The notes beneath the pieces are model-generated. The model was not told where the DNA came from. It saw nothing but the letters and a program-made list of their open reading frames with translations, and did not search any database. A DNA stretch of 64,000 nucleotides, taken from NCBI GenBank assembly GCA_025454375.1, contig JALOOO010000002.1, positions 1 through 64,000 on the forward strand, written 5' to 3'. Numbering within the stretch: position 1 is the stretch's first letter; the number at the start of each line of letters is the position of its first letter. This stretch comes from Leptolyngbya sp. Prado105. GTDB taxonomy: Bacteria > Cyanobacteriota > Cyanobacteriia > Leptolyngbyales > Leptolyngbyaceae. The translations under genes were made by a program, and so were the position numbers. Shown here in pieces: positions 7,429-37,806 of the stretch.

Positions 7429-7794
7429 TCATTGCCTGGGAGTCGCCCAAGAAAAGAACACTGCAATTCCAGCAAGATTAAAGAGCAGGGTTAGCACTGC
7501 CCCGATCACAACTCCCTTAACCAGGGAGTATCGACGATCGCGGAGCAAAATCAGGATGACTGGAATCACATAAAAAAGCTGAAACACTCCAATGCCAACG
7601 AGCATAAATACAAGCGATGTATAGCCATTGAGCAGAATAAACAGGGCTGGATTCTCAGATTGAGTTGAAAGGGTCACAACCAATAAGTAAATCAACAGCG
7701 CGATCGCAATTGCCAAGAGCAGGGCAATCCCATGCAGCCCGATGAGTAATAAAATACCGCGTAAAATTTTCCGACCTTGATTTGATTCTGCCAT
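7429..7794 (-). CDS. Small polytopic membrane protein, paralog of 9555-9887
   Basis: MAESNQGRKILRGILLLIGLHGIALLLAIAIALL...; several hydrophobic segments; resembles the 110-aa ORF two genes upstream. Confidence 0.7.
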   Translation of the reverse strand: MAESNQGRKILRGILLLIGLHGIALLLAIAIALLIYLLVVTLSTQSENPALFILLNGYTSLVFMLVGIGVFQLFYVIPVILILLRDRRYSLVKGVVIGAVLTLLFNLAGIAVFFSWATPRQ

Positions 7795-7808
7795 GCACTT
7801 TACCTGGA

Positions 7809-9533
7809 CTATCCTATACCGTTTCTAAAACCTGAGTTTGAAGTATTACTGATACATTTTGCGTCCAGTAGCGTGAATCGAGGAGTATTCAATGCAGCGC
7901 AATGCGTGAGTTTTGCCAAAGCAGGCGTTTTTTCTTGCTGGAGATGAGTCAGCGCGATCGTAAACTCTGGCTCGAAGCTTTTGAGCCAGCTTGCATTGGT
8001 GAGATATAGCGGCGTGAATGCAGTTTGTTCGATGAGCCAAAAGTTAATTTGATATTTCTCGATCGTTTGCTTGGCAGCAGTCAGATCTAAACTGTATTGC
8101 GCTTGAATCGTATCTAAAATTCGTTGGCGAATCTGACGGTAATAGCCCAAATGAAAGGGGAGCGCATGTTCTCGGCTAAATAAAACAGAGCGTTGCGAAA
8201 AGGTCGAAATATTGTTGGCTTCATCTGCAAGCGTTGCAATTAAGCTATTCTTGGGTTGAGCTTGCAGAAACTCATAGAGCGCGGTGTCTTGCCCGACTCG
8301 AAAATTTGTATTCGGAAATCCTTGCGAAAATTGAGGATAAGCAACCAGCGCGATCGTTATCAGAGCAACCATCGACAATCCTGCACCCATTGAAAACCAG
8401 CGATGCTGCGAAGCGAAAACTTCACAAGTTCGGCAGAGCGCATCGAGTAGCATCGTCAACACAATCCCGGCTGAAATCGCTAGCACAATCCGCAACGTGT
8501 GCGTGGTGTATCGAGTCGGGAAAAAGAGTCGCAGCAGCAATAAATGAGCCGCCGCAAATAATCCGAATGACACCCAAACCATTTGAGGTAAAAGCGCAAT
8601 TTTAGAATGGATCTGCCGCACTAATAAAAATCGTGATGGAGCGCGCATCACGATCGGCAAAAATACTCCAACCCAAATCAACGGCGGCATCAGGGGCGGA
8701 ATAATCCCGCTATGTTCGCCAATCAGCCAGAATTTCCAAGGATTCGGGTTAAAAAAAGGATGTCTACCTCCGGGGTGAAGCTCCGGCATTGACCAAGCTT
8801 GAGCGCGGGTAATTAAAGGCGCAAATTCTCGCGAACTGAGGGCATAAGGCAGCAATGTGATCGCGCTTAACCCAATACAGAGTCCGACAAATTTAAGTTG
8901 ACTAAAGTCAAGTCGTCTCGTTTTCCAATCCCAAAGTCGAAAACATAAAAGCACGATCGTAATAAATGCTAAAGGCGGATAAATTAGTGCTTGTAGCCCC
9001 AAAACGATGAGCATCCCCACTCGCTGATTACAGAGTAGAGCATAGAGAAATGCTAAAAACAAAGGCGTAACAAACGCTCTCGGAGTCGCAGAACTTAAAT
9101 CGTCTCGAAACCACAAGCTCTGATTAAGCATCAGCGTCGTGATAAATCCAGCGATCGGCAATGGAAAGAGCTTGAGACAAATCGCAAAACTATAAACCGT
9201 TGCAATCAGACCTAACCCAACAGGAAGGACTTTACTCAACCCAAGCGGCTGTACCCCAAACATTGCCATGACTTGATAAATTGCAGCATATCCTGGAGGC
9301 GTAATCGACTTAAAATACTGCACGATCAAGTCATTCGGAAGCAGCGTCGGATCGATAAATTGCTGCATCCAGAAGACATATTCTCTCGCATCATCTTGTA
9401 CCACATACTGCGATCGAAAGGCTTTTTGCAGTGCTAGGCTGCCATAGTATAGAGCGAATCCGATGCTGCAACCGAGCCAAAGCTTCGTCGTCTTAAGGCT
9501 AGTGAGAAATTGATGAACCCGTGAGATCAGCAT
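7809..9533 (-). CDS. Polytopic membrane protein, GT-C glycosyltransferase-like, unknown function; paralog of 20250-21863
   Basis: 574 aa, multiple TM segments, QDDAREYVFWMQQFIDP, SSREFAPLITRAQAWSMPELHPGGRHPFF, LPFHLGYYRQIRQ. Confidence 0.8.
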   Translation of the reverse strand: MLISRVHQFLTSLKTTKLWLGCSIGFALYYGSLALQKAFRSQYVVQDDAREYVFWMQQFIDPTLLPNDLIVQYFKSITPPGYAAIYQVMAMFGVQPLGLSKVLPVGLGLIATVYSFAICLKLFPLPIAGFITTLMLNQSLWFRDDLSSATPRAFVTPLFLAFLYALLCNQRVGMLIVLGLQALIYPPLAFITIVLLCFRLWDWKTRRLDFSQLKFVGLCIGLSAITLLPYALSSREFAPLITRAQAWSMPELHPGGRHPFFNPNPWKFWLIGEHSGIIPPLMPPLIWVGVFLPIVMRAPSRFLLVRQIHSKIALLPQMVWVSFGLFAAAHLLLLRLFFPTRYTTHTLRIVLAISAGIVLTMLLDALCRTCEVFASQHRWFSMGAGLSMVALITIALVAYPQFSQGFPNTNFRVGQDTALYEFLQAQPKNSLIATLADEANNISTFSQRSVLFSREHALPFHLGYYRQIRQRILDTIQAQYSLDLTAAKQTIEKYQINFWLIEQTAFTPLYLTNASWLKSFEPEFTIALTHLQQEKTPALAKLTHCAALNTPRFTLLDAKCISNTSNSGFRNGIG

Positions 9534-9554
9534 TTTAGTCGCTCCTTCGGCAAG

Positions 9555-9887
9555 CTAACTGAATTGGCTATTAAACCAGATGAAGCAACCTGCATTAAGC
9601 AAGGCTGTAATCGCTGCGCCGATCGCGACTCCTTTCATCACGGCAAATCGTTGATTGCGAAACAGTATCACCAAAATTGGAATGAGATAGAGAAATTGCG
9701 AAAGTCCAATTCCGGCAATCCCCATCAGCATCAAGACATTCAGGGGCGGAAACATACCGCTAACCATTGAAGCGATTCCGGCAAATAAAGCTGACAGCAA
9801 AAAGAAAAGAATGACTGCGGCAATATTTAATCCAGTGACCAGCAAAATGCCTTTGAATACATTCAGCCATTCATTTGATTCAGACAT
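9555..9887 (-). CDS. Small polytopic membrane protein, paralog of 7429-7794
   Basis: MSESNEWLNVFKGILLVTGLNIAAVILFFLLSALF... Confidence 0.7.
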   Translation of the reverse strand: MSESNEWLNVFKGILLVTGLNIAAVILFFLLSALFAGIASMVSGMFPPLNVLMLMGIAGIGLSQFLYLIPILVILFRNQRFAVMKGVAIGAAITALLNAGCFIWFNSQFS

Positions 9888-9892
9888 AGGAT

Positions 9893-11317
9893 CTACCTCG
9901 CACTCGCTGCCGACGGAGCGACTAAGTGATGTCCTTGGCTGCTTGATCGATAGAACATATTGTAAGTGTCAAAGGGAATGATTCGCCCATCTGGATCAGC
10001 GATGTGAATGCAAGATCGTTTCACCGATCGCACATCAAAATTAAATGGATCGAGAAATTGCATAATCATCACGCGAAATACATTCTCATAGGTCACGCCT
10101 GCTGGAACCGGAAGCATCGGCAAACAACACAAAAGCTGCTTCAAAGTTGCCGCAGAAGACACCGGGGAATGATTCGTCGAGAATAGCTTGAAAATCTTCT
10201 GTTTCAGGTCTTCATTTTGCTCATAGAGTACTGAATTTGGCATGACGTTGAGAAATGCAGTGGGATCAAGCAATCCGGTCAATGGAATCACCTGTCCATC
10301 GACTTTCAGCGCATATGCCATTGCTAAGCAATCAGGATGACAAGGCACAGGTAAAAGATCCTGCGGCTGAAAATAGGGACTCTGCTCCAGAATTGACCGA
10401 CGAACTTCGGTTAAAGTGTAGCGATCGCGGCTTGGCTCAAAATTTTCTAACCGTCCTGCTGCTTGAATCGGCTGGAATGTCACACCTCGAACACATTTTT
10501 GCTGAAGCCCGTATTCAATAATGCGCCCAATCTCATGGTTATTCAAGCCCTTCTTGACGGTCGCAACCAGAGTTGTAGAGATCCCAAATTCATTGAGATG
10601 CGCGATCGCTCTTTCTCGAATACTTCTTAGATCTGCCCCTCTGAGTTCTCGTAAAGCCTTCTCTTCAAAGCTATCAAACTGCAAATAGACCTCTATTCCA
10701 GGCATATAATCTTTGAGTCTTTGGCAAAAATTTCGGTCTTGAGCAATCTTGATGCCATTGGTATTGATCATCAAATGCTTAATCGGCTTACTTTTTGCAA
10801 GATCTAAAATTTGAAAAAACTCAGGATGAATCGTTGGTTCGCCACCGCTAATTTGCACAACATCCGGTTCCCCTTCATTTGCCACGATGTTGTCCAGCAT
10901 TTTTTCAATCGTGGCTAAATTACGATCGCGTCTCGGTTGATTCGAGTGTGTGAGGTCTTCCACTCCCGAATCAGCGTAGCAAATCGGGCAGGAAAGATTA
11001 CAGCGATCGCTGACTTCGACAAGTGTTAAACAGCTATGCTGCTCATGATCAGGGCAGAGTCCACAATCGTAAGGACATCCTCGATCGATAGGAGTGTTAA
11101 AGCGGCGAGGCATATCTCCGGGTTTGATAAATTCCTGACATTGCTTGTAGTATTCAATATCGTCTGCAATCAGAACTTCTTCACGTCCGTGGAGGGTGCA
11201 ATGTTTGGTGAGATAGACGCGATCGTTTTGGAAGATAATTTTTGCTTCTACTTTGTTGAGGCATTTTGAGCAGACGCTGTTGGTTAAGCCGTAGAAGAGA
11301 TAGGGACGGGTTGGCAT
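9893..11317 (-). CDS. Radical SAM protein, COG1964/MJ0619/Tes-like architecture
   Basis: N-terminal CSKC...CTLHG and GCPYDCGLCPDHEQHSC cysteine clusters, then CNLSCPICYADSG (Cx3Cx2C) and QISGGEPTIHPEF. Confidence 0.87.
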   Translation of the reverse strand: MPTRPYLFYGLTNSVCSKCLNKVEAKIIFQNDRVYLTKHCTLHGREEVLIADDIEYYKQCQEFIKPGDMPRRFNTPIDRGCPYDCGLCPDHEQHSCLTLVEVSDRCNLSCPICYADSGVEDLTHSNQPRRDRNLATIEKMLDNIVANEGEPDVVQISGGEPTIHPEFFQILDLAKSKPIKHLMINTNGIKIAQDRNFCQRLKDYMPGIEVYLQFDSFEEKALRELRGADLRSIRERAIAHLNEFGISTTLVATVKKGLNNHEIGRIIEYGLQQKCVRGVTFQPIQAAGRLENFEPSRDRYTLTEVRRSILEQSPYFQPQDLLPVPCHPDCLAMAYALKVDGQVIPLTGLLDPTAFLNVMPNSVLYEQNEDLKQKIFKLFSTNHSPVSSAATLKQLLCCLPMLPVPAGVTYENVFRVMIMQFLDPFNFDVRSVKRSCIHIADPDGRIIPFDTYNMFYRSSSQGHHLVAPSAASAR

Positions 11318-11377
11318 TGTTAAACCTAAAATGATTTTTGCGATGTTGTCAGCGGTTTCGCTTCGTTTGATCCGAAG

Positions 11378-12136
11378 TTATTCACAACTCACCTCTTGAA
11401 ATTGAAACAGTTTTGGAATGCTGCGATAGTAGTAAATCAATGCTAGAACACAAGCAATCTGAATCGCACTCAAGCCCAGAATCGGCTGAAACTCAGGCTT
11501 AATCGAATCAATTATCAGCCGAAAGCTCAAATAGCCAATCATATAGAACTTAAACAAATCGCCAGACTGAATCAAATAGCGCGATCGTACTTGCAAAAAA
11601 ACCATCCATAAAAACAAGAACCCAATCTCATAAAGCTGGGTTGGATGCCTGAGAATCCCATCGCCAAAATCAATTCCCCAGGGAAGACTTGTCGCAATCC
11701 CGTAAGTTCGATCGCTTAATCCAGTCAGAAAGCACCCAATTCTGCCAATCATCATGCCAAACATCAAAGGATAAACAAACGCATCCCCCGTCGATTGCTT
11801 CACCCCAATGATTTTTTTCGTCAGTTCTACTCCGATTAAAGCTCCGAGCAAGGCTCCAACGACCGTTTTTCCTTGAAGCAACATCAGCAAAAATAGCTCC
11901 TGCTGCTGCCACCAAAGATTAATATGTTGCAACATTACAAGAACTTTCGCCCCGATCAATGCCCCGATCATTCCCCCAACCACAATCGAGCTTCTTTGAG
12001 TCGGTTTGACAGTATCCCGTCGAAAATTCCGCAACGACAAGCGCAACGCTACCGCATACGCGATCGCTTCAAAGAAAACGTGCGGATGAATCTTAATTGC
12101 ACCAATGCCAATGTAAACAGGAAAGGTCACACCCAA
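11378..12136 (-). CDS. Prolipoprotein diacylglyceryl transferase (Lgt)-like membrane protein, divergent
   Basis: GRIGCFLTGLSDRTYGIATSLPWGIDFGDGILRHPTQLYE resembles the Lgt signature region; the usual HGG motif appears replaced by GKTVVGALLGALIG. Confidence 0.78.
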   Translation of the reverse strand: MGVTFPVYIGIGAIKIHPHVFFEAIAYAVALRLSLRNFRRDTVKPTQRSSIVVGGMIGALIGAKVLVMLQHINLWWQQQELFLLMLLQGKTVVGALLGALIGVELTKKIIGVKQSTGDAFVYPLMFGMMIGRIGCFLTGLSDRTYGIATSLPWGIDFGDGILRHPTQLYEIGFLFLWMVFLQVRSRYLIQSGDLFKFYMIGYLSFRLIIDSIKPEFQPILGLSAIQIACVLALIYYYRSIPKLFQFQEVSCE

Positions 12137-12191
12137 ATCTCACAACAGAGATTGCCACTATAACGAGTTCAGATTGTAAATCTCATTTTTT

Positions 12192-15059
12192 TTAGAACTT
12201 GTTTAGAATCTCAACAATTCCTAACTGCCCATCAATCCGAACTCTCTGCCCATCTTGCAAAATCTCAGTCGCATGTTGCACATCCATTACCGCAGGAATC
12301 CGATATTCTCTAGCAACAATCGCACCATGAGACAATCGCCCTCCCACTTCTGCAATCAGCCCTCCCACTCGTGCTAAAGCTGGCATCCAGCCCGAATCCG
12401 TATAAGGAACAACGAGGATTGTGTCTCGATCGAGATTGATCACGCCACCGAGCGATCGCATGACTCGAATCGTCCCTTCGACCTGTCCAGCACTCGCGCC
12501 AATCCCTTGAAGTCGATCAGAGACAGAGTGAGGCTTGAAATCAGGCAGAGGCGGATCGTCTCCATAAACGAGTTGTGGAATGGGGGCAAGTTGTCGATCG
12601 TGGTCAAATTGCGATCGACGTTGCTGAATTAATTCTGAGAACTCTGAAGTCGAGCCTTGGCGAATTTCAGCATAGGTGAGAAAAAAGAGGTCACCCGGTT
12701 CATGAAGAATGCCTGACGCGAGCCAATGTTGTTCGATCGCGATAAATTTCCAGCGCAGTTCAGCAAGTAATCGACTATAAATCTCGGTGACTTTGCCTTT
12801 TAGAGCTATACGACGTTGGACTTTTTGGTTCTTGATTCTGGGCGGAGTTGTCCCAGGAGTTGGATTTAAGCAGAACTGTATAAACAAATCTCGGATCGGT
12901 TCGGGTTGTTCTCGCCAGGTTGGAACGGCAATATCTGTCCCAACTTCGCTCAAGTAGCCATAGCGATCGAGCAGTTGATCAAACTGAGCTAAAATTGCTT
13001 GTCCTTGAGGCGTTTTCTCCAATTGAGCAAAGACATCATCTGAAAGATTAAGGAGCGATCGAGCAGAACTAGCAAGCGTCGAGAGCGATCGCATTACCGC
13101 AACTTCTGGAGTGTCAGAATTATCTACTTCATCGTCTTTGACTCGAAAGAGTGCTTTTCTCAACGCAGCACTCAAGGGAGCCAGAATACTATAGTAAGTT
13201 GCGCGTTCTAGTAACTCTAAAATCTGCTCGATTTGGGTCAGTAATGCCTTGATCGAATCTGATTTGTTGGTTGCATGAGTGCCTTCCGAATTCCATTTGT
13301 CACGGTGTTCAAACGATTCTAATGCTGCCAAAAATCGTTTTTCATCTCGCGCGAAGTCCTGCTCCAACTGCATTTCTCGTCCTAGCAATCGCAGCAATCC
13401 CGGCAAATTCTGAATCGTCGATCGTAAAGGCGGCTTACTAAACTTCGCCCCTCTGGTCAAAAACTCCAAACTCTCAGCAGGTAATCCCATTCGCCTGAAA
13501 ATTTGCCCCAACAATGACGCATTAAAGTACGCATGAGAATAATGGAGTGTAGCAGTTTCCTCAAAGTCCAACCCTTCAGCTCGATCGCCGAGTACGATCG
13601 TAAAAATCTTCCCCCAAACGCCACAAGTTAGCGGACGATTAATCGACCAAGTTAAAGGTCGGATCGCCCCTGGAATCACTTCTGCCGCGATCTTTCTCGT
13701 CCAGATTGGCGAAAGCGTCGTAATCGATCGAGCTTGCAACAACCACAGCTTTTCCCCGTCATAGCTCCACTCAATGTCTTGAGGAATTCCATGAAAATGC
13801 TCTTCTAAATGCCGTGCTAAGTAAGCCACTTGCTGAATTAATCGTTTTGGCACTTCGCCTTGTCCGGTTACTTCTAGCTCCTCTGATAAGTTCCAATCTT
13901 TACCCACTTCTCGGACATTCACACTGTAGCTTTCGGGTGTGATCTGTCCTGAAACCACTCGATCGGCATTTCCTGGTAAAGCTTCGATCAAAACTGCATC
14001 GCCCTGTCGCGAAATCGGATCGCGACTAAAAGCAACCCCTGAAAACACTCCTCGAATTTGATTTTGAACTAGCACAACCATCGACGCATCAGCAATTGCG
14101 CGATCGCGGCGATACTGCACTGCTGAGGTCTGCTCATACGATTCCAAGCATTGCATAATCGCAGGCAAAAGCAACTCTCGATGACGAATCCCTCCAATCG
14201 ATTCATACTGTCCTGCTGCCGAAGCCGACTCCGAATCTTCCCCGATCGCTGAAGATCTAACAATTAAAGGATGCTCCGGACTCGGCTGCATTGCTTGAAT
14301 CAATCGTTGCGGATCATCTCCTGGGAGTAACACCCAACCCTCTGGAACTGGATAACCCGATCGCTTTAATTTCGACAGTGTAGCCGCCTTTTGCCCTACT
14401 TTTTCTGGGTGCAATTCTTGATCTAATGAAATCAGCGATCGATCATCGCGAAGAAACTGAAACATAGATGACGATCCTCTCTGTACTGTATCAGGTCTAA
14501 GGTCTAAATCATCTGGAATCTGGTTATAAATCCACCCCAAAAAAGCTGCAAGCCCGATCGCGCTTAAAATCAACTTTGTCTCTTGTGAATGCCGCAATCC
14601 TGTAATCAGTGGAAATAAAATCAACACCCCAAATTTTCCCGTCTGCCGCTGCCGCAAAATCGTAAATCCAATTCCCCCAATCAAAAACACCAGAAACGAA
14701 GTCAGCGGATCATGCACGACATATCCCCAAACAACATTCGTCGTGCCTGCCCCTTTGCCAATAAAGTACCGCCCATACACGAGTGCGATCAGCGAGATAA
14801 GCTCCCACTCAGGACGATCAGGGAAAAACGAGCGAGCGAGCAAAACAGCGACAATGCCTTTCAATGCCTCAGACAACACGGCTAGAATTCCGGCAAATTT
14901 TCCCCCATGATAAAACGCTGCCGAAACGCTGATATTTCCTGTGCCAATTTCCTGCAACCTCCTTCCTGTCAGCCCTTGAGTCATCCAACGAATCAAAGGC
15001 AATCCGCCCAGAATCGGACACAATACAAAAATCAGCAGCGAACCCCAAACGTGCGTCAT
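12192..15059 (-). CDS. Fusion: N-terminal PlsY-like acyltransferase membrane domain + PEP-synthase/rifampin-phosphotransferase-like dikinase (ATP-grasp and phospho-His domains)
   Basis: N-term GTGNISVSAAFYHGGKFAGILAVLSEALKGIVAVLLAR (PlsY-like); VRSSAIGEDSESASAAGQYESIGG (PPDK_N); C-term GGRLSHGAIVAREYRIPAVMDV (PEP-utilising mobile domain His). Confidence 0.82.
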   Translation of the reverse strand: MTHVWGSLLIFVLCPILGGLPLIRWMTQGLTGRRLQEIGTGNISVSAAFYHGGKFAGILAVLSEALKGIVAVLLARSFFPDRPEWELISLIALVYGRYFIGKGAGTTNVVWGYVVHDPLTSFLVFLIGGIGFTILRQRQTGKFGVLILFPLITGLRHSQETKLILSAIGLAAFLGWIYNQIPDDLDLRPDTVQRGSSSMFQFLRDDRSLISLDQELHPEKVGQKAATLSKLKRSGYPVPEGWVLLPGDDPQRLIQAMQPSPEHPLIVRSSAIGEDSESASAAGQYESIGGIRHRELLLPAIMQCLESYEQTSAVQYRRDRAIADASMVVLVQNQIRGVFSGVAFSRDPISRQGDAVLIEALPGNADRVVSGQITPESYSVNVREVGKDWNLSEELEVTGQGEVPKRLIQQVAYLARHLEEHFHGIPQDIEWSYDGEKLWLLQARSITTLSPIWTRKIAAEVIPGAIRPLTWSINRPLTCGVWGKIFTIVLGDRAEGLDFEETATLHYSHAYFNASLLGQIFRRMGLPAESLEFLTRGAKFSKPPLRSTIQNLPGLLRLLGREMQLEQDFARDEKRFLAALESFEHRDKWNSEGTHATNKSDSIKALLTQIEQILELLERATYYSILAPLSAALRKALFRVKDDEVDNSDTPEVAVMRSLSTLASSARSLLNLSDDVFAQLEKTPQGQAILAQFDQLLDRYGYLSEVGTDIAVPTWREQPEPIRDLFIQFCLNPTPGTTPPRIKNQKVQRRIALKGKVTEIYSRLLAELRWKFIAIEQHWLASGILHEPGDLFFLTYAEIRQGSTSEFSELIQQRRSQFDHDRQLAPIPQLVYGDDPPLPDFKPHSVSDRLQGIGASAGQVEGTIRVMRSLGGVINLDRDTILVVPYTDSGWMPALARVGGLIAEVGGRLSHGAIVAREYRIPAVMDVQHATEILQDGQRVRIDGQLGIVEILNKF

Positions 15060-20249: not shown

Positions 20250-21863
20250 ATGGATACTCGTTCGACTCGCAAAATCTCTGTATGGCTGATTCTGACATTG
20301 GCGATCGCGGCTTTCTATTCTGGGCTGGCGATGCAAGAGGCATTTTCAGATCCAACGGTGATTCAGGATGATGCGCGAGTGTATTTGCTTTGGATGCAGC
20401 GATTTCTTGATCCGTCGCTGTTTTTGAATGATCCAATGGCGAGATATTTTCACTCGGTCACGCCTTGGGGGTTGGAAACGCTGTATTGGCTTGCATCAAG
20501 AGTTGGGATTTCACCGATTTTATTTAGTAAAATTTTGCCTGCAATCTTGACGCTCTTGGTCGGTTGGTATGGATATCGACTGACCCTGGCACTGTTTCCG
20601 GTTCCGATCGCTGGATTTTTCAGTAGTGTGATTTTGCTTCAGAGTTGCTGGCAGAGAGATGATCTGGCTTCAGGATCTCCGAGGTCATTTTGGGCAGTGT
20701 TGCTTGCTGCGTTTCTTTACTATCTTGTAAAGCGATCGTGGATTGCGATCGCGCTTGTTGTGATTTTGATGGCGCTATTTTGTCCGTTAGCAGCCATTCT
20801 GATTGTGATCTGGTTTGGATTGCGCGGACTTTGGGGATTAAAAACTCGATCGGTTCAACGTGCAGAATGGATGATTCTGACCGTGACGATCGCGATGTTA
20901 CTGCCCTATGTCTTCAGCCAATCGGAATTTGCTCCGACGGTCAATGCGGCTCAGGCAAGATTGATGCCGGAATTCCAAGCAGGTGGACGCTTGCCCTTTT
21001 TCTTTGAGAATCCGTGGCGGTTCTGGTTTGAGGGAACGGATAGCGGGTTTCAGGTTTCGTTTAATCCAGTGGCGATTGGGTTGGGGTTGTTATTGCCTGG
21101 ATTGGCGAAGTTTCGCAAGCCTGAACTGCTAAAGCCAGACTGGATTATTTTGCCGCAGATAGCAGGTGCGGGAATTGTTGGATTTTTTCTAGCTCATGCT
21201 TTGTTTGTAAAATTGCACTTCCCCAGTCGATATATTACGCATAGTTGGCGGATTGCGATGGCGGTTGCAGCGGGCATTGTGATTGCGATCGCGTTTGAGA
21301 AGTTGCGATCGCAGCGCTGGCTCTGTGCGATTTTGGCAACTGCGATTGTGCTATTTCCGCATGTTGCTTGGAAGGATTTTCCGCATACAGGCTATGGAGG
21401 GGGGAGAAATCCAGAACTCTATGCGTTTATCAAAGCCCTGCCCAAAACGACCTTCACCGCTTATCTGGGCGAAGATGCAAACAATTTGCCGTTGCTCTCA
21501 CAACGATCGACATTAGTTGCACAAGAATATGCGGTTCCGTTTCATTTAGGCTACTATTTACCCATGCGGCAGAAGGCGGTTGATTTGATCAACGCACAGT
21601 ATAGTGAATCATTAGAACCTGCTAAAAAATTAATCCGACAATATCAAGTGACGCATTGGCTCATTGATGCGAATGCCTTTACACTGAGTTACTTTGAGAG
21701 CTATCGCTGGTTGAGACTATTTCAAGATGAAAAGAAAAAAGCGATCGCGCTTCTTACCTCTGGAAGGTTTCCTGCACTTTATCGCGTCCTGCCAAATTGC
21801 GCCGTCACTACGATTTCAGGCACAACTGTAGTCGATGCTGTTTGCGTTTTAGCCCAGAAATGA
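20250..21863 (+). CDS. Polytopic membrane protein, GT-C-like; paralog of 7809-9533
   Basis: QDDARVYLLWMQRFLDPSLFLND, SEFAPTVNAAQARLMPEFQAGGRLPFFFENPWRFW, VPFHLGYYLPMRQ matching the 7809-9533 product. Confidence 0.8.
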   Translation: MDTRSTRKISVWLILTLAIAAFYSGLAMQEAFSDPTVIQDDARVYLLWMQRFLDPSLFLNDPMARYFHSVTPWGLETLYWLASRVGISPILFSKILPAILTLLVGWYGYRLTLALFPVPIAGFFSSVILLQSCWQRDDLASGSPRSFWAVLLAAFLYYLVKRSWIAIALVVILMALFCPLAAILIVIWFGLRGLWGLKTRSVQRAEWMILTVTIAMLLPYVFSQSEFAPTVNAAQARLMPEFQAGGRLPFFFENPWRFWFEGTDSGFQVSFNPVAIGLGLLLPGLAKFRKPELLKPDWIILPQIAGAGIVGFFLAHALFVKLHFPSRYITHSWRIAMAVAAGIVIAIAFEKLRSQRWLCAILATAIVLFPHVAWKDFPHTGYGGGRNPELYAFIKALPKTTFTAYLGEDANNLPLLSQRSTLVAQEYAVPFHLGYYLPMRQKAVDLINAQYSESLEPAKKLIRQYQVTHWLIDANAFTLSYFESYRWLRLFQDEKKKAIALLTSGRFPALYRVLPNCAVTTISGTTVVDAVCVLAQK

Positions 21864-27415: not shown

Positions 27416-28195
27416 CTACCGAGTGAGCTTCTCAAGCTGACAACAGGGAGTGACGGTTGTCGCTGTCTTGCTTTCTAGTTTTTGTTGTTTGAGCAATTCA
27501 TTCCAGGCTTCTAAGGTAGATTTATCTTGAGTTGCGCGAATTTCTGTGCCTAAAGTTGTTAAAGCATCATACCAAATGCCGTATTTGGCATAGAGTTTTG
27601 CTCGATCGAGTGAAGTTTTAGCCCCTGCTAATCCTTGCTGTAATGCGGCAGTCGGGGCGACTCTCTGAATTCGACCTTTTCGGACTAGAGGTAAGTCAAG
27701 CGTGATTTCATCCTGACTCGTCGGATTATCGTTAGCGCTGCCACAATAGAGGGCTAAATCCCATTGATAGGTCGAAACCGCTAACGGGGCAACGCTGTTT
27801 GGAATTGCAAAACTCACTACGCCGGGATTGGTTTTTGGCAGTCGAGCGGTCGTGCGATAGATGACTTTATTGTTTGAATTGCGTAACTTCCATTCAACTA
27901 ACGTTCCAGCTTCGACTCCGGTTGGAATATTCACCCAGATTGTCGGTCGATCGCTCACTGTTAAGCCCCATTGATCATTTGATCGTGGAGAGGGAACTAA
28001 TACTTTTAAGCCTGGAAATTCTTGATCACAACCGCGAGCGCCTGCACCTGTTCCGCGATCGGAGGGTGTGCCTGTGTCGGGAGGCGGAGGCGGAGAAAAG
28101 CGAATTCGCGGCTGGGCATTTGCAAAATGAGAAGAGAGTGAGACAACTGTGAGCAATGAGAGACTGACTGCAATGTGAGAGAGTTTGAAATTCAT
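27416..28195 (-). CDS. DUF928 family secreted protein
   Basis: Signal peptide, then GLKVLVPSPRSNDQWGLTVSDRPTIWVNIP... and a C-terminal helical repeat; start overlaps the upstream stop (ATGA). Confidence 0.83.
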   Translation of the reverse strand: MNFKLSHIAVSLSLLTVVSLSSHFANAQPRIRFSPPPPPDTGTPSDRGTGAGARGCDQEFPGLKVLVPSPRSNDQWGLTVSDRPTIWVNIPTGVEAGTLVEWKLRNSNNKVIYRTTARLPKTNPGVVSFAIPNSVAPLAVSTYQWDLALYCGSANDNPTSQDEITLDLPLVRKGRIQRVAPTAALQQGLAGAKTSLDRAKLYAKYGIWYDALTTLGTEIRATQDKSTLEAWNELLKQQKLESKTATTVTPCCQLEKLTR

Positions 28196-30522
28196 GATGG
28201 CTCCTTAAGAAGACGATAAGCAACTAATCCGCTATTGAGTAAAAATCCTAAAAATGCTGGGACTAAAGGAATCCAACCCCCTTGAGTCAAAGTCAGCCAG
28301 CACCCTCCAATCAGTAAGACAACACAGCTTGAACCGATGATTCCAATCCATTTCAATTGACGAAATCGCCAAATCAGTAAGCCTCCAAGTAATGTCCAAC
28401 TCCCAATCCAAAGAATCTCGATCGCGCTTGACCAAACCCACAACAATGGACGTTTATCTAAGACCGCACTGATGATCTGACTGACCATATGTGCCTGGAC
28501 GGTTACGCCCGGAAGTTGTTGCGGAAAGCCTTTGCCATAAGGAGTTGAGAAATAATCTTTGGTACTAGGAGCCGTCACACCGATTAGAACAATCCGATCT
28601 TTGATCGCACTGAGATTCATTTCTCCATTGAGCAATTGGCGGACGGTGACTTGTTGTGCAATTTCAGTCGGGGATTTTGTCGATCGATAGTTGAGTAAAA
28701 TCTGACTCCCGCGCGAATCAAATCGTTGATAGCCACTCGTTCGCTCTGTTAAGGCTGGGAAAATAGTCCCTCCAAGCTTCAAATGTTTGTCAGGGGTGAA
28801 CTCGGGCAAGATTGCAGCAGGTTGAGTGCCGAGATAGCGAAAAGCAAGCTGGAGATTGAGTGAATAAGGAGCAGCACAGGCTCCAACCTCATTCGCACTT
28901 GCAAAAAGCAAATGCCGCCGCAACACTCCGTCGCGATCTTGGACAACATCGCTAAATCCGATCGCGTCAGGACTGACTCCAGCAGGAGGTGCAATTCCCT
29001 TCGGATCATTCGCATCTGGATCAGGACGTTTGCAAATCGCGACGAGTTGAGCATTTTGCGCCATCTGTTCCATGCGCTTTTTTAAGCTCGGGCGCTGTGT
29101 GGGAAAGTCGCGGTAGAGGTCAAGTCCAACGACGCGAGCTTGATTGCGTTCGAGCGTTTCTAAGACTCGATCGAGGGTTTCATCTGACAAAGAGCCACCA
29201 TTTTGCGGCTGTCGCTGGATGTCTTCTTCTTCGACTTTGACAATCAGGAGTCGCGGATCACGCGGTTCGATCGGGCGATGCTGCATTAAGAGATCAAAGG
29301 CTTGCAGTTCTAGCGGTTGCATCGCTCCAAACCCGCGAATGCCCGTGATTAGGCTTGTGATTGCGAGCGTGCTAAGCGCGATCGTTTGCAACTGCGATCG
29401 CGACATGGGAGGCAAAAGCGGACGTTTCTGACCGCACCAATCTTGCCAGGTGGGAGGGATTTCTGCTGGATTTTGGCAAATGACTGGGAGCCAAGTCGCG
29501 CAAGGAAAATTTGATTCTAATGCTTGCAGTTTCTCTCTGGCTTCTCGCACTGAACCATACAGTGATTGTCCATTCGAGAACGCATGTAGAAATGATTTGA
29601 GAAATTCTTGAGCAATCTGATCGCTCACAGGCTCACGCATCACAATCACCTGCGGGATCTGCAAATCTGCTAAATCTTGAGCGAGTCCTAACCCATCACA
29701 AGAGTTAAAAATTGCAAGCTTCAGACCTTTAGAAATCGCATGGCGCAAACTATACTTTAATTGCTCGATCGTTAAGGTTTCGCTCTGATTGATTTGAATG
29801 TAGCCTTTGACATCTGTAGAACTATGTCCTGCAAAAAATAGCACATCCCAATCGGATTGCCAGAGCTTATCTTGTAATGCTTGTGGGGTTGGCTCGACGA
29901 GGAAATGTACTTCTGCATTGGGTAACTTTTGCAGTAATTGACGATCGCGCTCGATATCAATGCCTTGAGAATTGCCAAGAATGCTGAGAATTCGGACTTT
30001 CTTACGGCGATTTGAACTCGGCAATTGCAGCGATCGGGCAAATTCTGGCAAGCTCAAAGCAATTTCCGCATGAGGATAGTCAGAGAGAAAATCCCATAAG
30101 CTCCAGGGCAATTGCAGAATTTGTCGATCGTTGGCAACTACGATGAGACGAATCGAATCTTTGGGCGAAAGGCGGGTGCGAAGTTGTCGATCGATTGCCC
30201 GAAAGGAGCTTGCACTGAGCCAGAGGTTGAACTGACTCTGTACCTCTCGTGAAAGTTGATGAAATTCTGCAATGGAAATATGGGTTGGCTCGTCATCGTC
30301 GAGTTCAAATTCCGCAGCACGGCGCAAACCCAGATGAGCATAGAGCGCAGTATAGATTGAACGCCAACGAGTTAAGCGATCGCATAGGGTCGGAATCGCA
30401 GGTAAGCCGCCTGTAAACTGCATGGGAGTCGATCGCCCAACTTCCCACAGTTGAGCAATCACTGTCGGAAATCCATCTTTCCAATTCCCTTGCCCTAGAT
30501 TGAGAACAATTAGATGATCCAT
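28192..30522 (-). CDS. CHAT (caspase-like) protease domain + CHASE2 sensor domain membrane protein
   Basis: WDVLFFAGHSSTDV (His) and LAIFNSCDGLGLAQDLADLQIPQVIVMREPVSD (Cys); CHASE2 region DPRLLIVKVEEEDIQRQPQNGGSLSDETLDRVLETLERNQARVVGLDLYRD; C-terminal TM helices. Confidence 0.9.
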   Translation of the reverse strand: MDHLIVLNLGQGNWKDGFPTVIAQLWEVGRSTPMQFTGGLPAIPTLCDRLTRWRSIYTALYAHLGLRRAAEFELDDDEPTHISIAEFHQLSREVQSQFNLWLSASSFRAIDRQLRTRLSPKDSIRLIVVANDRQILQLPWSLWDFLSDYPHAEIALSLPEFARSLQLPSSNRRKKVRILSILGNSQGIDIERDRQLLQKLPNAEVHFLVEPTPQALQDKLWQSDWDVLFFAGHSSTDVKGYIQINQSETLTIEQLKYSLRHAISKGLKLAIFNSCDGLGLAQDLADLQIPQVIVMREPVSDQIAQEFLKSFLHAFSNGQSLYGSVREAREKLQALESNFPCATWLPVICQNPAEIPPTWQDWCGQKRPLLPPMSRSQLQTIALSTLAITSLITGIRGFGAMQPLELQAFDLLMQHRPIEPRDPRLLIVKVEEEDIQRQPQNGGSLSDETLDRVLETLERNQARVVGLDLYRDFPTQRPSLKKRMEQMAQNAQLVAICKRPDPDANDPKGIAPPAGVSPDAIGFSDVVQDRDGVLRRHLLFASANEVGACAAPYSLNLQLAFRYLGTQPAAILPEFTPDKHLKLGGTIFPALTERTSGYQRFDSRGSQILLNYRSTKSPTEIAQQVTVRQLLNGEMNLSAIKDRIVLIGVTAPSTKDYFSTPYGKGFPQQLPGVTVQAHMVSQIISAVLDKRPLLWVWSSAIEILWIGSWTLLGGLLIWRFRQLKWIGIIGSSCVVLLIGGCWLTLTQGGWIPLVPAFLGFLLNSGLVAYRLLKEPS

Positions 30523-30535
30523 TGCTTCGTCTCAC

Positions 30536-31660
30536 CTAAGCTAGAAAGTTTTCTGTGAGTTGATCGGCATCAAATGCAATCTGCACCCTAAATTCAGTCC
30601 CTGTCGAGCAGCGGAAGCGCCGAAGCTGAATCAAATTATCTTGCTCTCGTGCTTCAACCGCTTGCACGATGTCTCCTGCACTCGAAAGCATGGTGAGCAT
30701 TAATCCACTGGGCAAAATGCCATCCCGCTCTGCCGATCGCAGTTGCACTCGAACGGATAAGCGATCGTTGTCTTCTTGCTCTAACACAACCGATAGCCAG
30801 AGGGTCTGTTCTCCGAGTTCTAAGACTTTGACTCGCTGAATCGAATTTTGCTCAAGCGTTTGGCGGAAGCTATAGGCGAGAGAAGGCTCGTTCCCCAGTA
30901 AGCTTTCTAAGGTTTGCCAACCTTCTGCGATCGTATTCTGGAACCACTGACTGAGCGACTCGGTTCTAGAACCGAGTCGCAATTGCCCAAGTTGATTCAG
31001 CCATTGGGATTGCTCAAGTAATGCGCCCCAGAGTTGAAACGGGATTTCTAAGCGAGGTTGGAGAACTTCGGGATTGGCTAAGCGTTGCAGAAGATTGTCA
31101 GCCTGAGTTGCAGGAACAGGCGCAAGAGAAGCAATTTCGGCACGAGTTACAGCTTCAGGAGCCACTTCTCGCGTCACTGTAAAGACGGCAAAATCTTGAA
31201 TCATCTGTTCTGCTGCTAGGGTATAAGTCCGATCGTCGGAATCATACTGAGCGAAAGCTTTTAGCTGAGCATGAGTGGTGTATCCCCAAATTAAAATTGA
31301 AGCATCGTCGGGGTTCACCTGTGCTGCAAAATAGTAGTCTCCTGCCCAGCTTGGAATATCTACCCACTCCTGCGGTACTTTCAATTCGCTTGTGTCGATC
31401 GTTTTATCTGGAATCAAAATGACTCGATGCGCTCCCAGCGTAAACGGGGTTCCCGTGACCAATTGCCAGAGATTTTGTAAGGCTGTTTGCTCCAGAGTTT
31501 CGCTGTCTTGCAGCCAGGTGAGAACGGGCTGAAGGCAAACTTGATTAAGATAGGTATTCCAGCGAGCGGGAGCAAAGCGCGATCGATTTTGCCAAGCGCT
31601 AAGATTAGACTGCGGCGAAATCTCTAGACAGGGTTGGGTTGGAACATTGAGGTAAGACAT
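30536..31660 (-). CDS. DUF1822 family protein
   Basis: WVDIPSWAGDYYFAAQVNPDDASILIWGYTTHAQLK, RVKVLELGEQTLWLSVVLEQEDNDRLSVRVQLRSAERDGILPSGLMLTML; gene-neighbour context. Confidence 0.8.
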   Translation of the reverse strand: MSYLNVPTQPCLEISPQSNLSAWQNRSRFAPARWNTYLNQVCLQPVLTWLQDSETLEQTALQNLWQLVTGTPFTLGAHRVILIPDKTIDTSELKVPQEWVDIPSWAGDYYFAAQVNPDDASILIWGYTTHAQLKAFAQYDSDDRTYTLAAEQMIQDFAVFTVTREVAPEAVTRAEIASLAPVPATQADNLLQRLANPEVLQPRLEIPFQLWGALLEQSQWLNQLGQLRLGSRTESLSQWFQNTIAEGWQTLESLLGNEPSLAYSFRQTLEQNSIQRVKVLELGEQTLWLSVVLEQEDNDRLSVRVQLRSAERDGILPSGLMLTMLSSAGDIVQAVEAREQDNLIQLRRFRCSTGTEFRVQIAFDADQLTENFLA

Positions 31661-31827
31661 AAGAATAAAGGTTTGGAGTGCGCGATGAATCTATTCACGA
31701 TGGAAATTTTGAACTTATGCAGATCATTCAGTAAAATGGTAACTTTGCCAAATAAAAGAAATTGAGCCATTGCGACACTAAACTAGAAGCGAAACATTGC
31801 ACGAACAGCAACCTGATGGTTTTACTC

Positions 31828-32030
31828 CTGATTGACTGACAAAACTCGTGAAGCTCCCTCCGCTACGTTGCCATTCCACCCGCGCGTGAACGGCGGGCTA
31901 ACAGAAATAACCCCACTCAACTGGGCTAAAAACATTCCTGAGTATGCTTCAGCATAGTTTCCTCAATTAGCCCGCCGTTCACGTGCGGGCGGGATACGCA
32001 ATCACGAAGAGATTTGTTCAGTCAACAATG
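31828..32030. mobile_element. MITE-like element (copy B), inverted and diverged relative to copy A
   Basis: CTGATTGACTGACAAAAC at 31828-31845 matches the copy A TIR; core CAGAAATAACCCCACTCAACTGGGCTAAAAA... equals the reverse complement of the copy A core with substitutions; right TIR degenerate (ATTTGTTCAGTCAAC). Confidence 0.75.
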
Positions 32031-32046
32031 ATTCTACTCACACAGA

Positions 32047-33396
32047 TCACCAAGGATTGCCAATTAGCGTAAACGCTGCCCAGTGATAAGGATGCGCCAA
32101 ATTCTGATCGGCTAAGGCTCTCACCTCTTCGGGGAAGCGTCGATCGCGAACTTGCGCCCGAATGCGATCGGAATTGCGAATCATCTCAAGCTGCGCCTCT
32201 CTCAACGCATCCGCTTTCATTGGAGCCGATTTTAATGCTCGATAAAACTCCTTCATCAGCATCAAAGTACTGGCATCACCCACCGACCAGAGCGACGCGA
32301 TCGCGGCTTTACTACCCGCCTTTACCGCCAATCCGGCAAATCCCATTTCTGCTTTCGTATCTCCTAATGCAGTCCGGCAAGCACTGAGAACTAACAATTG
32401 CACAGGCGGATTCTGCAAGCCCAACTCCTGAAGCTGACCCAATTTCAACTGCTGATCCCAGAATTGGATATAAGACTGATTCACATCGCCTGATGTGAAT
32501 TCTGCATGAGTTGCTAAATGCACAATGCCGTAAGGCGTTTTCTGCCGATGCGCGACCAGATTCTTCAGTGTGAATTCTTGATTGAGCAAAGATGTCCCTT
32601 GCCAGGGCGTTTGGGTAATCGACGAAATCTCTAACGGAACTCCTGGCAGCGGCGGCTTATTGCTAAACGTCGAAGCTCCCATCGCGAGAATCTCAGTATT
32701 AGCAGAAGTGCGCGATTGTCGATCGAGCAAATTAAAGGCAGGAATAATCGCCAGATTGTACTTTTCAATTAAAAACTTTTGTCCATCGTGCAAAGCTGCT
32801 AACGGTAAGCTTCGTAACCCACTCCCTAAGCAAAAAATAATTTGATTGATTCCTTCAGCTTGAAGTTGCGCCTCTAGGGGTGTGATGATCCAGCGATAAA
32901 GTTGCTGTCCGGGGACTAAGTAATCATCAGGATCAGAATCGTCTCGCACAACACCCATCCGAAAAGCTCGAATTCGTTGATTCAGCGCAGGTCGATTGGC
33001 AGCAGTAATGCGACGATGAATCGGCTGACCCTGAGCCGTGACCAACATCAAATCTAAATGCTTCGCACCCGGAATCGCATAGAATAAAGCCGATTTTCTC
33101 CCGGTGCGCTGATTGATCTGCGCTAAGGATTGAGCAATCTCCGCAGCAGGCAAGACTTGAGTTGTAAACTTCCCTTGAAAGTAGTCTTCGTATTGTTTTT
33201 TCCAGCGTAGTTCAATTTGGCGAACCGCTTCAGCGACATCTGAGCGATCGAGGGCTTGAGCCACAAGATCTGGAGCAGGCTTAACAAGAGGCGCTTGAGC
33301 GACTGCAAGATTGGGCGAGACATTGGAACGCGAACATCCAACTGTAATCAGAAACGCAATCAAGACAATCGGCAGGAACCATTGCGGGTATTTCAT
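32047..33396 (-). CDS. CHAT domain protein, predicted lipoprotein
   Basis: YGIVHLATHAEFTSGD (His), LLVLSACRTALGDTKAEMGFAGLAVKAGSKAAIASLWSV (Cys); N-term MKYPQWFLPIVLIAFLITVGCSRS lipobox. Confidence 0.93.
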   Translation of the reverse strand: MKYPQWFLPIVLIAFLITVGCSRSNVSPNLAVAQAPLVKPAPDLVAQALDRSDVAEAVRQIELRWKKQYEDYFQGKFTTQVLPAAEIAQSLAQINQRTGRKSALFYAIPGAKHLDLMLVTAQGQPIHRRITAANRPALNQRIRAFRMGVVRDDSDPDDYLVPGQQLYRWIITPLEAQLQAEGINQIIFCLGSGLRSLPLAALHDGQKFLIEKYNLAIIPAFNLLDRQSRTSANTEILAMGASTFSNKPPLPGVPLEISSITQTPWQGTSLLNQEFTLKNLVAHRQKTPYGIVHLATHAEFTSGDVNQSYIQFWDQQLKLGQLQELGLQNPPVQLLVLSACRTALGDTKAEMGFAGLAVKAGSKAAIASLWSVGDASTLMLMKEFYRALKSAPMKADALREAQLEMIRNSDRIRAQVRDRRFPEEVRALADQNLAHPYHWAAFTLIGNPW

Positions 33397-36774: not shown

Positions 36775-37806
36775 ATGCAAAGTTACGGAAATCCAGAGGT
36801 GAAATACGATTGGTGGGCAGGGAATGCTCGATTTGCCAATCAATCCGGACTATTCATTGCAGCCCATGTTGCTCAAGCCGCCTTGATTACGTTTTGGGCA
36901 GGAGCTTTCACATTATTTGAGATTTCTCGCTATTCGCCCGATCTGCCCATGGGCGCACAGGGGCTAATTTTACTTCCTCATCTCGCAACTTTAGGTTTAG
37001 GAGTCGGCAAAGGTGGACAAATTGTTGATACTTATCCTTACTTTGTGGTTGGAGCAGTTCACTTGATTTCATCGGCGGTTTTAGGGGCGGGAGCTTTGTT
37101 CCACACCTTTAGAGCGCCTGAGAATTTAAAAGATGCAACTGGGCAAGCGAAAAAGTTCCATTTCGATTGGGAAAAGCCTGAAACTTTGGGATTTATCTTA
37201 GGTCATCATCTGCTGTTTTTGGGTGCAGGAGCTTTGCTGCTGGTTGCGAAAGCAATGTTTTTTGGCGGACTTTATGATCCCAACATTCAAGAGGTCCGAA
37301 TGGTTACTAGCCCAACCCTCGATCCCTGGGTGATTTACGGGTATCAAACGCATTTTGCCAGTGTGAATCATTTAGAAGATCTCGTCGGTGGGCATATCTA
37401 TGTCGGCTTGATGCTGATTGGAGGCGGGATTTGGCATATTCTTGTGCCGCCGCTGAAGTGGGCAAGAAAGGTGCTGATCTTTTCAGGTGAAGCGATTCTC
37501 TCGTATTCGTTAGGTGGAATTGCTTTAGCTGGGTTTGTGGCGGCTTATTTCTGTGCCGTGAATACATTGGCTTATCCGGTTGAGTTTTATGGTCCGGTGC
37601 TTGAGGTGAAGTTGGGCATTACGCCTTACTTTGCCGATACGGTGCAGCTTTCAATGGGCGCTCATACGCCTCGTGCTTGGTTGGCTAATGCTCATTTCTT
37701 CTTAGCGTTCTTCTGCTTGCAGGGGCATCTGTGGCACGCGCTGAGAGCGATGGGATTTGACTTTAAGCGAATTGAAAAGGCATTGGATTCGATGCAGCAG
37801 GTTTAG
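36775..37806 (+). CDS. isiA: Iron stress-induced chlorophyll-binding protein (CP43')
   Basis: [61 protein letters not shown]; ~343 aa, lacks the large CP43 lumenal loop. Confidence 0.95.

Follow-up and report, generated by a model that had tools for sequence, protein, structure and literature searches.

A row of six minus-strand genes in Leptolyngbya sp. Prado105 (positions 7429-15059 of the window, the whole 64,000-nucleotide stretch of DNA that was analysed) contains a conserved unit of three genes, coding for an Lgt paralogue, a radical SAM enzyme and TMb, a small membrane protein (9555-12136); the combination suggests that a membrane protein or lipid is modified in a manner not described so far. 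Our favoured interpretation, plausible while falling somewhat short of probable, is that the three proteins form a system that modifies, or lipidates, a cysteine located near the C-terminus of TMb. The six open reading frames were all found where a previous, sequence-only reading had placed them, and the gaps it had reported between them (55, 60, 5, 21 and 14 bp, from upstream to downstream) are exact. No promoter or terminator signal stood out above chance level across the row.

The sequence-only reading had assembled the six genes into a single envelope-lipid pathway, and the presence of six close genes on the same strand in Leptolyngbya sp. Prado105 speaks in its favour. The most upstream gene (12192-15059, minus strand) does code for a PlsY-dikinase fusion as had been claimed, with Pfam matches to G3P_acyltransf (60.1 bits, residues 14-176), PPDK_N and PEP-utilizers. 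The fifth gene (7809-9533, minus strand) codes for a 574-aa polytopic protein, for which the proposed label “GT-C-like” was unsupported: no Pfam, NCBIfam or PDB-profile match was found, and the structural model (pLDDT of 55) had too low a confidence to be searched by fold. Of 40 relatives, 33 have the fusion and 25 the 574-aa protein, irrespective of the radical SAM gene and including genomes free of it, and both are missing from all other radical SAM loci examined. In a genome of the same genus (G002), the three-gene unit is missing at one site, where the fusion and the 574-aa protein genes lie side by side, meaning that the two are linked to each other and not to the module. The six-gene operon was rejected on this synteny and on the independent spread of the two genes, and a pathway including them is scarcely credible. 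Judging from gene order and distribution, they encode ordinary neighbours, uninvolved in the module.

The link between the radical SAM enzyme and the Lgt paralogue that had been drawn from this one locus proved, on the other hand, real and ancient. Of 97 radical SAM loci fetched, 86 contained the Lgt paralogue, encoded on the same strand as the radical SAM enzyme and in most cases next to it or overlapping it; of 12 checked genomes in which no adjacent copy was found, 9 had one at another site. Among cyanobacteria, it was found in 9 of 10 genomes bearing the radical SAM gene versus 0 of 378 genomes free of it (P 2e-17, phylogeny being ignored). Conservation of gene order beyond close relatives was therefore observed for the Lgt paralogue, radical SAM enzyme and small membrane protein, not for the fusion and the 574-aa protein; as to the cyanobacterial scope first given to the gene set, the unit does occur in cyanobacteria, but this was too narrow, as it was found in at least 8 bacterial phyla. 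The module clade includes cyanobacteria, Bacillota, Bacteroidota and others, with culturable hosts in Paenibacillus, Flavobacterium, Mucilaginibacter and Hymenobacter. A translated search of two odd long loci revealed no Lgt-radical SAM fusion. At some loci, varied genes separate the Lgt paralogue from the radical SAM gene, with no shared family seen among them. The open-licence literature, searched for Lgt-like proteins or lipoboxes in combination with radical SAM enzymes, contained nothing relevant.

The radical SAM enzyme (9893-11317, minus strand) combines the Pfam Radical_SAM domain with an HMPTM Zn ribbon, and its membership of the Tes/MJ0619 superfamily, as first read, is clear. Its closest solved relative is Tes, the tetraether synthase of archaea (GDGT-MAS, MJ0619; PDB 7tol, 7tom; NF045702), with homology over the whole length (E 2.7e-67 by sequence with 7tol, which is also the top fold match, TM 0.79) and 33% identity over the aligned part. 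We nevertheless rejected its assignment to Tes proper: the Tes model of NCBIfam gave 288.5 bits, for a cut-off of 450, the enzyme and its homologues form their own clade, apart from Tes (support 100/99), and the C-terminal ligands are lost (see below). The best NCBIfam model, TrsS, a radical SAM (seleno)protein (NF045646), was also discarded, with a score of 327 bits, far under the cut-off of 490 that none of 20 module genomes exceeded. Unlike the module enzyme, TrsS retains three C-terminal cysteines. The TrsS loci of Bacillota that we read carry what we take, by eye, to be a methyltransferase and a C-GCAxxG-C-C-like protein, with no Lgt, whereas module loci carry an Lgt paralogue and a small membrane protein.

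In all 98 radical SAM sequences, the rubredoxin-like site (C16/C19/C40/H43), the N-terminal auxiliary cluster (C81/C85/C88/H91) and the CX3CX2C SAM cluster (C106/C110/C113) are kept, as are R226, Q282 and R289, which correspond to the 5′-deoxyadenosine-binding residues R210, Q268 and R275 of Tes. The C-terminal cluster, where the carbon-sulfur intermediate of Tes forms, was found to be remodelled. Its three [4Fe-4S] ligands, as deduced from the columns invariant in every Tes and TrsS row, are Cys in 25 of 25 Tes sequences and are all replaced in the module family, by A45/C40/S9/T4 at C330, by S, T or A only at C435, and by D or E only at C450. The position of Tes Tyr459 is occupied by Ile in 94 of 98 sequences, and the labile Met of Tes is not fixed in the module enzymes, which also differ from Tes in travelling with the Lgt paralogue. 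Four new cysteines (C326/C397/C398/C436) are invariant in the 98 sequences; they could not be placed in the model, because residues 355-403 mostly have a pLDDT below 50.

These data bear on an alternative that we consider unlikely, in which the radical SAM enzyme would modify or couple the tails of free phospholipids in the manner of Tes, the paralogue would supply, bind or transfer the lipid, and TMb would be structural. Such tailoring would fit with the kinship to Tes in both sequence and fold, the conserved 5′-deoxyadenosine-binding residues, the phosphatidic acid bound in the tunnel of Tes (PMC9433317), the binding of phosphatidylglycerol by Lgt folds, and the synthesis of membrane-spanning lipids proposed for bacterial Tes homologues (PMC8941075). 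It is difficult to reconcile with the replacement of all the deduced cluster ligands and of Tyr459, and with the separate clade, and it offers no explanation for the near-invariant cysteine in the small protein (see below). Bacterial Tes homologues are often taken as evidence of membrane-spanning lipids and of brGDGT producers (PMC8941075, PMC11868695), and the module enzymes, devoid of the Tes C-terminal cluster cysteines, make up a large clade of bacterial proteins that lies near or inside the published limits of Tes searches. Given this loss, and the tie with an Lgt paralogue and a cysteine protein, their genes are probably not markers of membrane-spanning lipids. Mss, a bacterial membrane-spanning lipid synthase that couples lipid tails and has been modelled as similar to Tes (PMC13274423), is known from gene contexts other than that of the module.

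The Lgt paralogue (11378-12136, minus strand) is an integral membrane protein, rightly recognised at the outset as Lgt-like, which matches Pfam LGT (PF01790) with 87.6 bits for a cut-off of 24.9, and PDB 5azb/5azc by profile search. Translation starts at TTG 12136, or at GTG 12127 as in relatives. The RHPxxLYE region of Lgt, the prolipoprotein diacylglyceryl transferase (5azb), is kept, together with residues contacting the phosphatidylglycerol head group: Arg143, Glu202 (24 of 25 sequences), Tyr235, Arg239, and Arg246 in the form of Lys (24 of 25). In contrast, Tyr26 of Lgt is a His in the paralogue, and in 25 of 25 paralogues His103 is replaced by V, I, M or L, and Asn146 by Cys. His103 and Asn146 are essential to ordinary Lgt activity, and roles have been described for the residues of the phosphatidylglycerol pocket (PMC8689077). 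New invariant residues were found in the 25 sequences: His19, Glu23, Glu104, Lys107 and Cys135. We rejected the idea that the paralogue is the sole Lgt of the cell, since a separate, ordinary Lgt is present in most module genomes checked, and conclude that the paralogue has another job.

The proposed acceptor, TMb (9555-9887, minus strand), has Cys101 close to where its last helix ends (RNQRFAVMKG-VAIGAAITALLNAGC-FIWFNSQFS). A near-C-terminal cysteine was present at 67 of the 67 loci where the small protein was found, and in 86 of 90 such proteins, versus 71 of 134 background open reading frames used as a control; at about a quarter of the radical SAM loci, no small cysteine protein was obvious nearby. 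A K/R-rich loop is located 16-25 residues before the cysteine and is followed by some 15 uncharged residues, a layout reminiscent of a lipoprotein signal, which is also kept by small proteins of unrelated sequence, and the cysteine is predicted at the level of the outer leaflet. The likeness to a lipobox resides in this succession of a K/R-rich segment, about 15 hydrophobic residues and a cysteine; the difference is that it comes at the C-terminus of a protein with several helices. The context of the cysteine, [FLN][GSA]xC, moreover departs from a genuine lipobox in frequently having Thr, Ile or Val at position -1, and a [LVI][ASTVI][GAS]C motif following an N-terminal signal helix was not found, the cysteine ending the last helix instead. 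A Pfam search on the small proteins gave nothing over cut-off.

In our favoured interpretation, the most likely target of the module is the cysteine of the last TMb helix, close to its C-terminal end. The near-invariance of this cysteine, together with the loss of the Tes C-terminal ligands, points to a reaction different from that of Tes, perhaps on a protein cysteine. We infer the substrates, the order of steps and the product as follows. The cytosolic radical SAM enzyme would first cleave SAM and abstract a hydrogen from an unactivated carbon, probably in the tail of a membrane lipid, as for Tes, and its re-ligated C-terminal metal site would handle the carbon radical otherwise than Tes does. 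The Lgt paralogue would then bind this modified phospholipid (or an ordinary one) and transfer its diacylglyceryl moiety onto the cysteine, with the role of base played not by His103 but by another residue, such as the new invariant His19, and the product would be a small proteolipid. The absence from the paralogue of His103 and Asn146, both required by ordinary Lgt, does count against lipidation. Other points against the proposal are the departure of the cysteine context from a lipobox, the loci without an obvious small cysteine protein, the Phe-bearing copy beside the radical SAM gene of genome G003, the paralogy of most cysteine-less copies, and the predicted position of the cysteine in the outer leaflet, which makes direct contact with the cytosolic radical SAM enzyme doubtful. 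Whether the scheme extends across many phyla to a protein lipidation dependent on radical SAM and separate from Lgt/Lsp/Lnt, in which the radical SAM enzyme prepares the lipid and the paralogue joins it to the cysteine, is more doubtful. If the chemistry is true, cyanobacteria, Bacillota, Bacteroidota and other groups would conjugate lipids to proteins by a new route.

Two other explanations also involve the cysteine. The radical SAM enzyme might form a radical thioether or cross-link directly on TMb, like a sactipeptide maturase, with the Lgt paralogue as a membrane scaffold: the near-invariant cysteine and the position of the small open reading frame directly after the radical SAM gene, as for precursor genes beside radical SAM peptide maturases, would suit it. 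However, the substrate would be a hydrophobic protein of 2-4 transmembrane segments without a leader, no RRE or SPASM model was matched in the Pfam search, and the cysteine is predicted to sit in the outer leaflet; we hold this explanation to be improbable. Slightly more improbable still, the cysteine could be a cluster ligand or a redox link, TMb being a membrane anchor that holds or reduces the rebuilt metal site. This would account for a remodelled C-terminal site accompanied by a near-invariant cysteine, but the cysteine is some 15 residues into the helix, away from the cytosolic loop, and the same signal-like arrangement recurs in small proteins unrelated in sequence.

Of the cyanobacterial genomes that encode a homologue of the small protein, 11 of 12 with the radical SAM gene, versus 0 of 9 without it, were found to have a copy bearing the cysteine. 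Most of the cysteine-less copies from radical SAM-free genomes form a separate paralogous clade, so that the clean case of cysteine loss is a single genome (G006), which has lost the module and where a copy nested among cysteine-bearing ones has Phe/Leu at the cysteine site. We retain the association between the cysteine and the radical SAM gene at the genome level, though it is weakened by this paralogy. In another genome (G003), the copy adjacent to the radical SAM gene has Phe, and a second copy located elsewhere has the cysteine.

The last gene of the row (7429-7794, minus strand) codes for TMa, and the two small proteins, TMa and TMb, are homologous to each other, a relationship absent from the sequence-only reading. 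TMa lacks the cysteine and reads LLFNLAGI at this position. The module-free genome G002 still has an orthologue, and TMa is associated with the module without being a core part of it.

Six minus-strand open reading frames, which a sequence-only reading had proposed to form an envelope/lipid-modification operon, were found in place: a PlsY-PPDK fusion (12192-15059), an Lgt paralogue (11378-12136), a Tes-superfamily radical SAM enzyme (rSAM, 9893-11317), a small membrane protein, TMb (9555-9887), a 574-aa protein (7809-9533) and a second small membrane protein homologous to TMb, TMa (7429-7794). The gaps between them are 55, 60, 5, 21 and 14 bp, as first described. Domain searches upheld three of the proposed labels, namely the LGT family, radical SAM, and PlsY fused to PPDK-N and PEP-utilizer domains (respectively an ATP-binding domain resembling that of pyruvate-phosphate dikinase and a mobile domain), and detected an HMPTM zinc ribbon in the rSAM. 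The label "GT-C-like" for the 574-aa protein is unproven, because family and PDB-profile searches gave no match and its structure model was poor. A paralogue of this polytopic protein (40% identity) lies 5 kb away on the opposite strand (20250-21863, plus), past a divergent OprB/SLH porin gene.

Conservation of the gene order was then found to hold for part of the row. At the rSAM loci examined in relatives, the enzyme was accompanied by genes for an Lgt-like protein and for small membrane proteins, and neither PlsY-PPDK nor the 574-aa protein was present beside it. Homologues of these two occurred in 33 and 25 of 40 cyanobacterial relatives, respectively, whether rSAM was present or not. No rSAM was found in G002, a genome of the same genus, whose region is collinear with the window save that no Lgt-rSAM-TMb separates PlsY-PPDK from the 574-aa gene. 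We concluded that these three genes are a unit, hereafter the module, that comes and goes independently.

When the GTDB genome collection was scanned, at least 80 rSAM loci were recovered (55-79% identity, nearly full length), the matches listed including Cyanobacteriota, Bacillota, Bacteroidota, Acidobacteriota, Planctomycetota, Pseudomonadota, Elusimicrobiota and Myxococcota. Of 388 cyanobacterial genomes drawn evenly, 10 carried the rSAM clade, and these came from photosynthetic and other classes. The Lgt paralogue was found within 86 of 97 fetched rSAM loci, encoded on the strand of rSAM and in most cases directly beside or overlapping that gene, and elsewhere in the genome in 9 of 12 whole-genome searches where none was adjacent. 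Among the 388 genomes it was present in 9 of the 10 with rSAM and 0 of the 378 without (P = 2×10−17 before allowing for shared ancestry). Most genomes checked also had an ordinary Lgt.

Lgt residues are numbered on what we take to be the E. coli sequence, and the PDB profile match agrees on the motif positions. In all 25 paralogue sequences His103 is replaced by V/I/M/L and Asn146 by Cys, so that the paralogue departs from an ordinary Lgt at two residues that the E. coli enzyme requires (PMC8689077). Arg143, Tyr235, Arg239 and Glu202 (24/25) are kept, as is Arg246 in the form of Lys (24/25); these residues are part of the phosphatidylglycerol head-group network. Newly invariant are His19, Glu23, Glu104, Lys107 and Cys135.

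The closest solved relative of the rSAM is the archaeal tetraether synthase Tes, both by sequence (E = 2.7×10−67) and by fold (TM 0.79, rSAM model pLDDT 78). The 24 module enzymes sampled formed a single clade (support 100/99) in a tree that also contained 16 sequences of TrsS (another radical SAM family), 25 of Tes and further homologues. Compared at the Tes site positions (PMC9433317), the rubredoxin-like site, the N-terminal auxiliary cluster, the radical SAM cluster and the 5′-dA contacts are kept in 98 of 98 module sequences. Three columns with cysteine in every Tes and TrsS row are A/C/S/T, S/T/A and D/E in the module family, which instead has invariant C326, C397, C398 and C436; residues 355-403 were mostly modelled unreliably. 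Judging by their invariance and the adjoining labile Met439, the three columns probably hold the ligands of the Tes C-terminal cluster. This cluster is the proposed site where a carbon-sulfur intermediate forms, which makes it likely, on sequence grounds, that the chemistry of the module rSAM differs from that of Tes. The module rSAM stands apart from Tes by cut-off, clade and C-terminal cysteines, and from TrsS by cut-off and gene context; the module parts may still work like Tes and Lgt.

Three further Tes-superfamily genes in a Bacillota genome, G618 (loci L200, L204 and L206, two in tandem), branch just outside the module clade and keep the C-terminal Cys columns. Long Tes-like proteins were also seen (L233-L236 and many Acidobacteriota matches); the four aligned lack the N-terminal auxiliary cluster cysteines and keep the C-terminal ones. 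Bacterial Tes homologues have already been noted, and proposed for brGDGT synthesis (PMC8941075; PMC11868695). A homologue from the Acidobacterium Edaphobacter aggregans cited in brGDGT work (32% identity) could belong to the module clade. No description of the module gene set was found in the open-licence literature searched.

The gene directly downstream of rSAM is a short ORF, for which 2-4 helices are predicted; these ORFs fall into several families, none with a Pfam match. In 67 of 67 loci with an ORF of this kind, and in 86 of the 90 proteins, the C-terminal 32 residues include a Cys, versus 71 of 134 background membrane ORFs of the same loci (P = 3×10−13). This Cys lies at a median of 9 residues from the C-terminal end, in the context [GL][FLN][GSA]xC, with a K/R-rich loop 16-25 residues ahead and almost no charges in between. 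The layout is like that of a lipoprotein signal helix and would put the residue within the outer half of the membrane, but it is not accompanied by a true lipobox. In five Bacillota loci without the downstream ORF, a zinc-domain protein with a similar terminal motif is encoded upstream of the Lgt gene; about a quarter of rSAM loci had no clear small Cys-protein candidate nearby. In Paenibacillus relatives (L065, L066, L067, L069, L073 and L201) an upstream small protein, with a Cys-rich N-terminal part in L073 and L201 and a final helix ending ICG, apparently replaces the downstream one.

The observations are of gene set, conservation and residue changes alone, and the reading they best support is a system of three parts whose target is the small protein's cysteine. 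The radical enzyme would activate a carbon, most likely in a lipid tail, and the Lgt paralogue would bind the phospholipid and join it to the Cys via its rebuilt active site. The main rival is that the module tailors a free lipid; after it rank a radical cross-link inside the small protein, and a role of its Cys as a cluster ligand.

Among cyanobacterial genomes having a small-protein homologue (G008, with its copy cut off, was excluded), a Cys-bearing copy was present in 11 of 12 with rSAM versus 0 of 9 without (Fisher, 3×10−5), an association to be read with care since the Cys-less copies of rSAM-free genomes mostly form a separate paralogous clade, and since TMa, with its orthologue in G002, is itself a Cys-less paralogue of TMb. 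The clean case is genome G006, where the module is absent and the Cys lost from a copy that groups with the Cys-bearing ones and adjoins the same methyltransferase and desaturase genes. Genome G003 is a counter-case, with Phe in the copy beside rSAM and Cys in another copy.

Elsewhere in the window, a CP43-like/IsiA-type chlorophyll protein (36775-37806, plus), recognised by eye, fits the cyanobacterial source, and a minus-strand group with CHAT/CHASE2-like proteins, also assigned by eye, spans 28192-33396.
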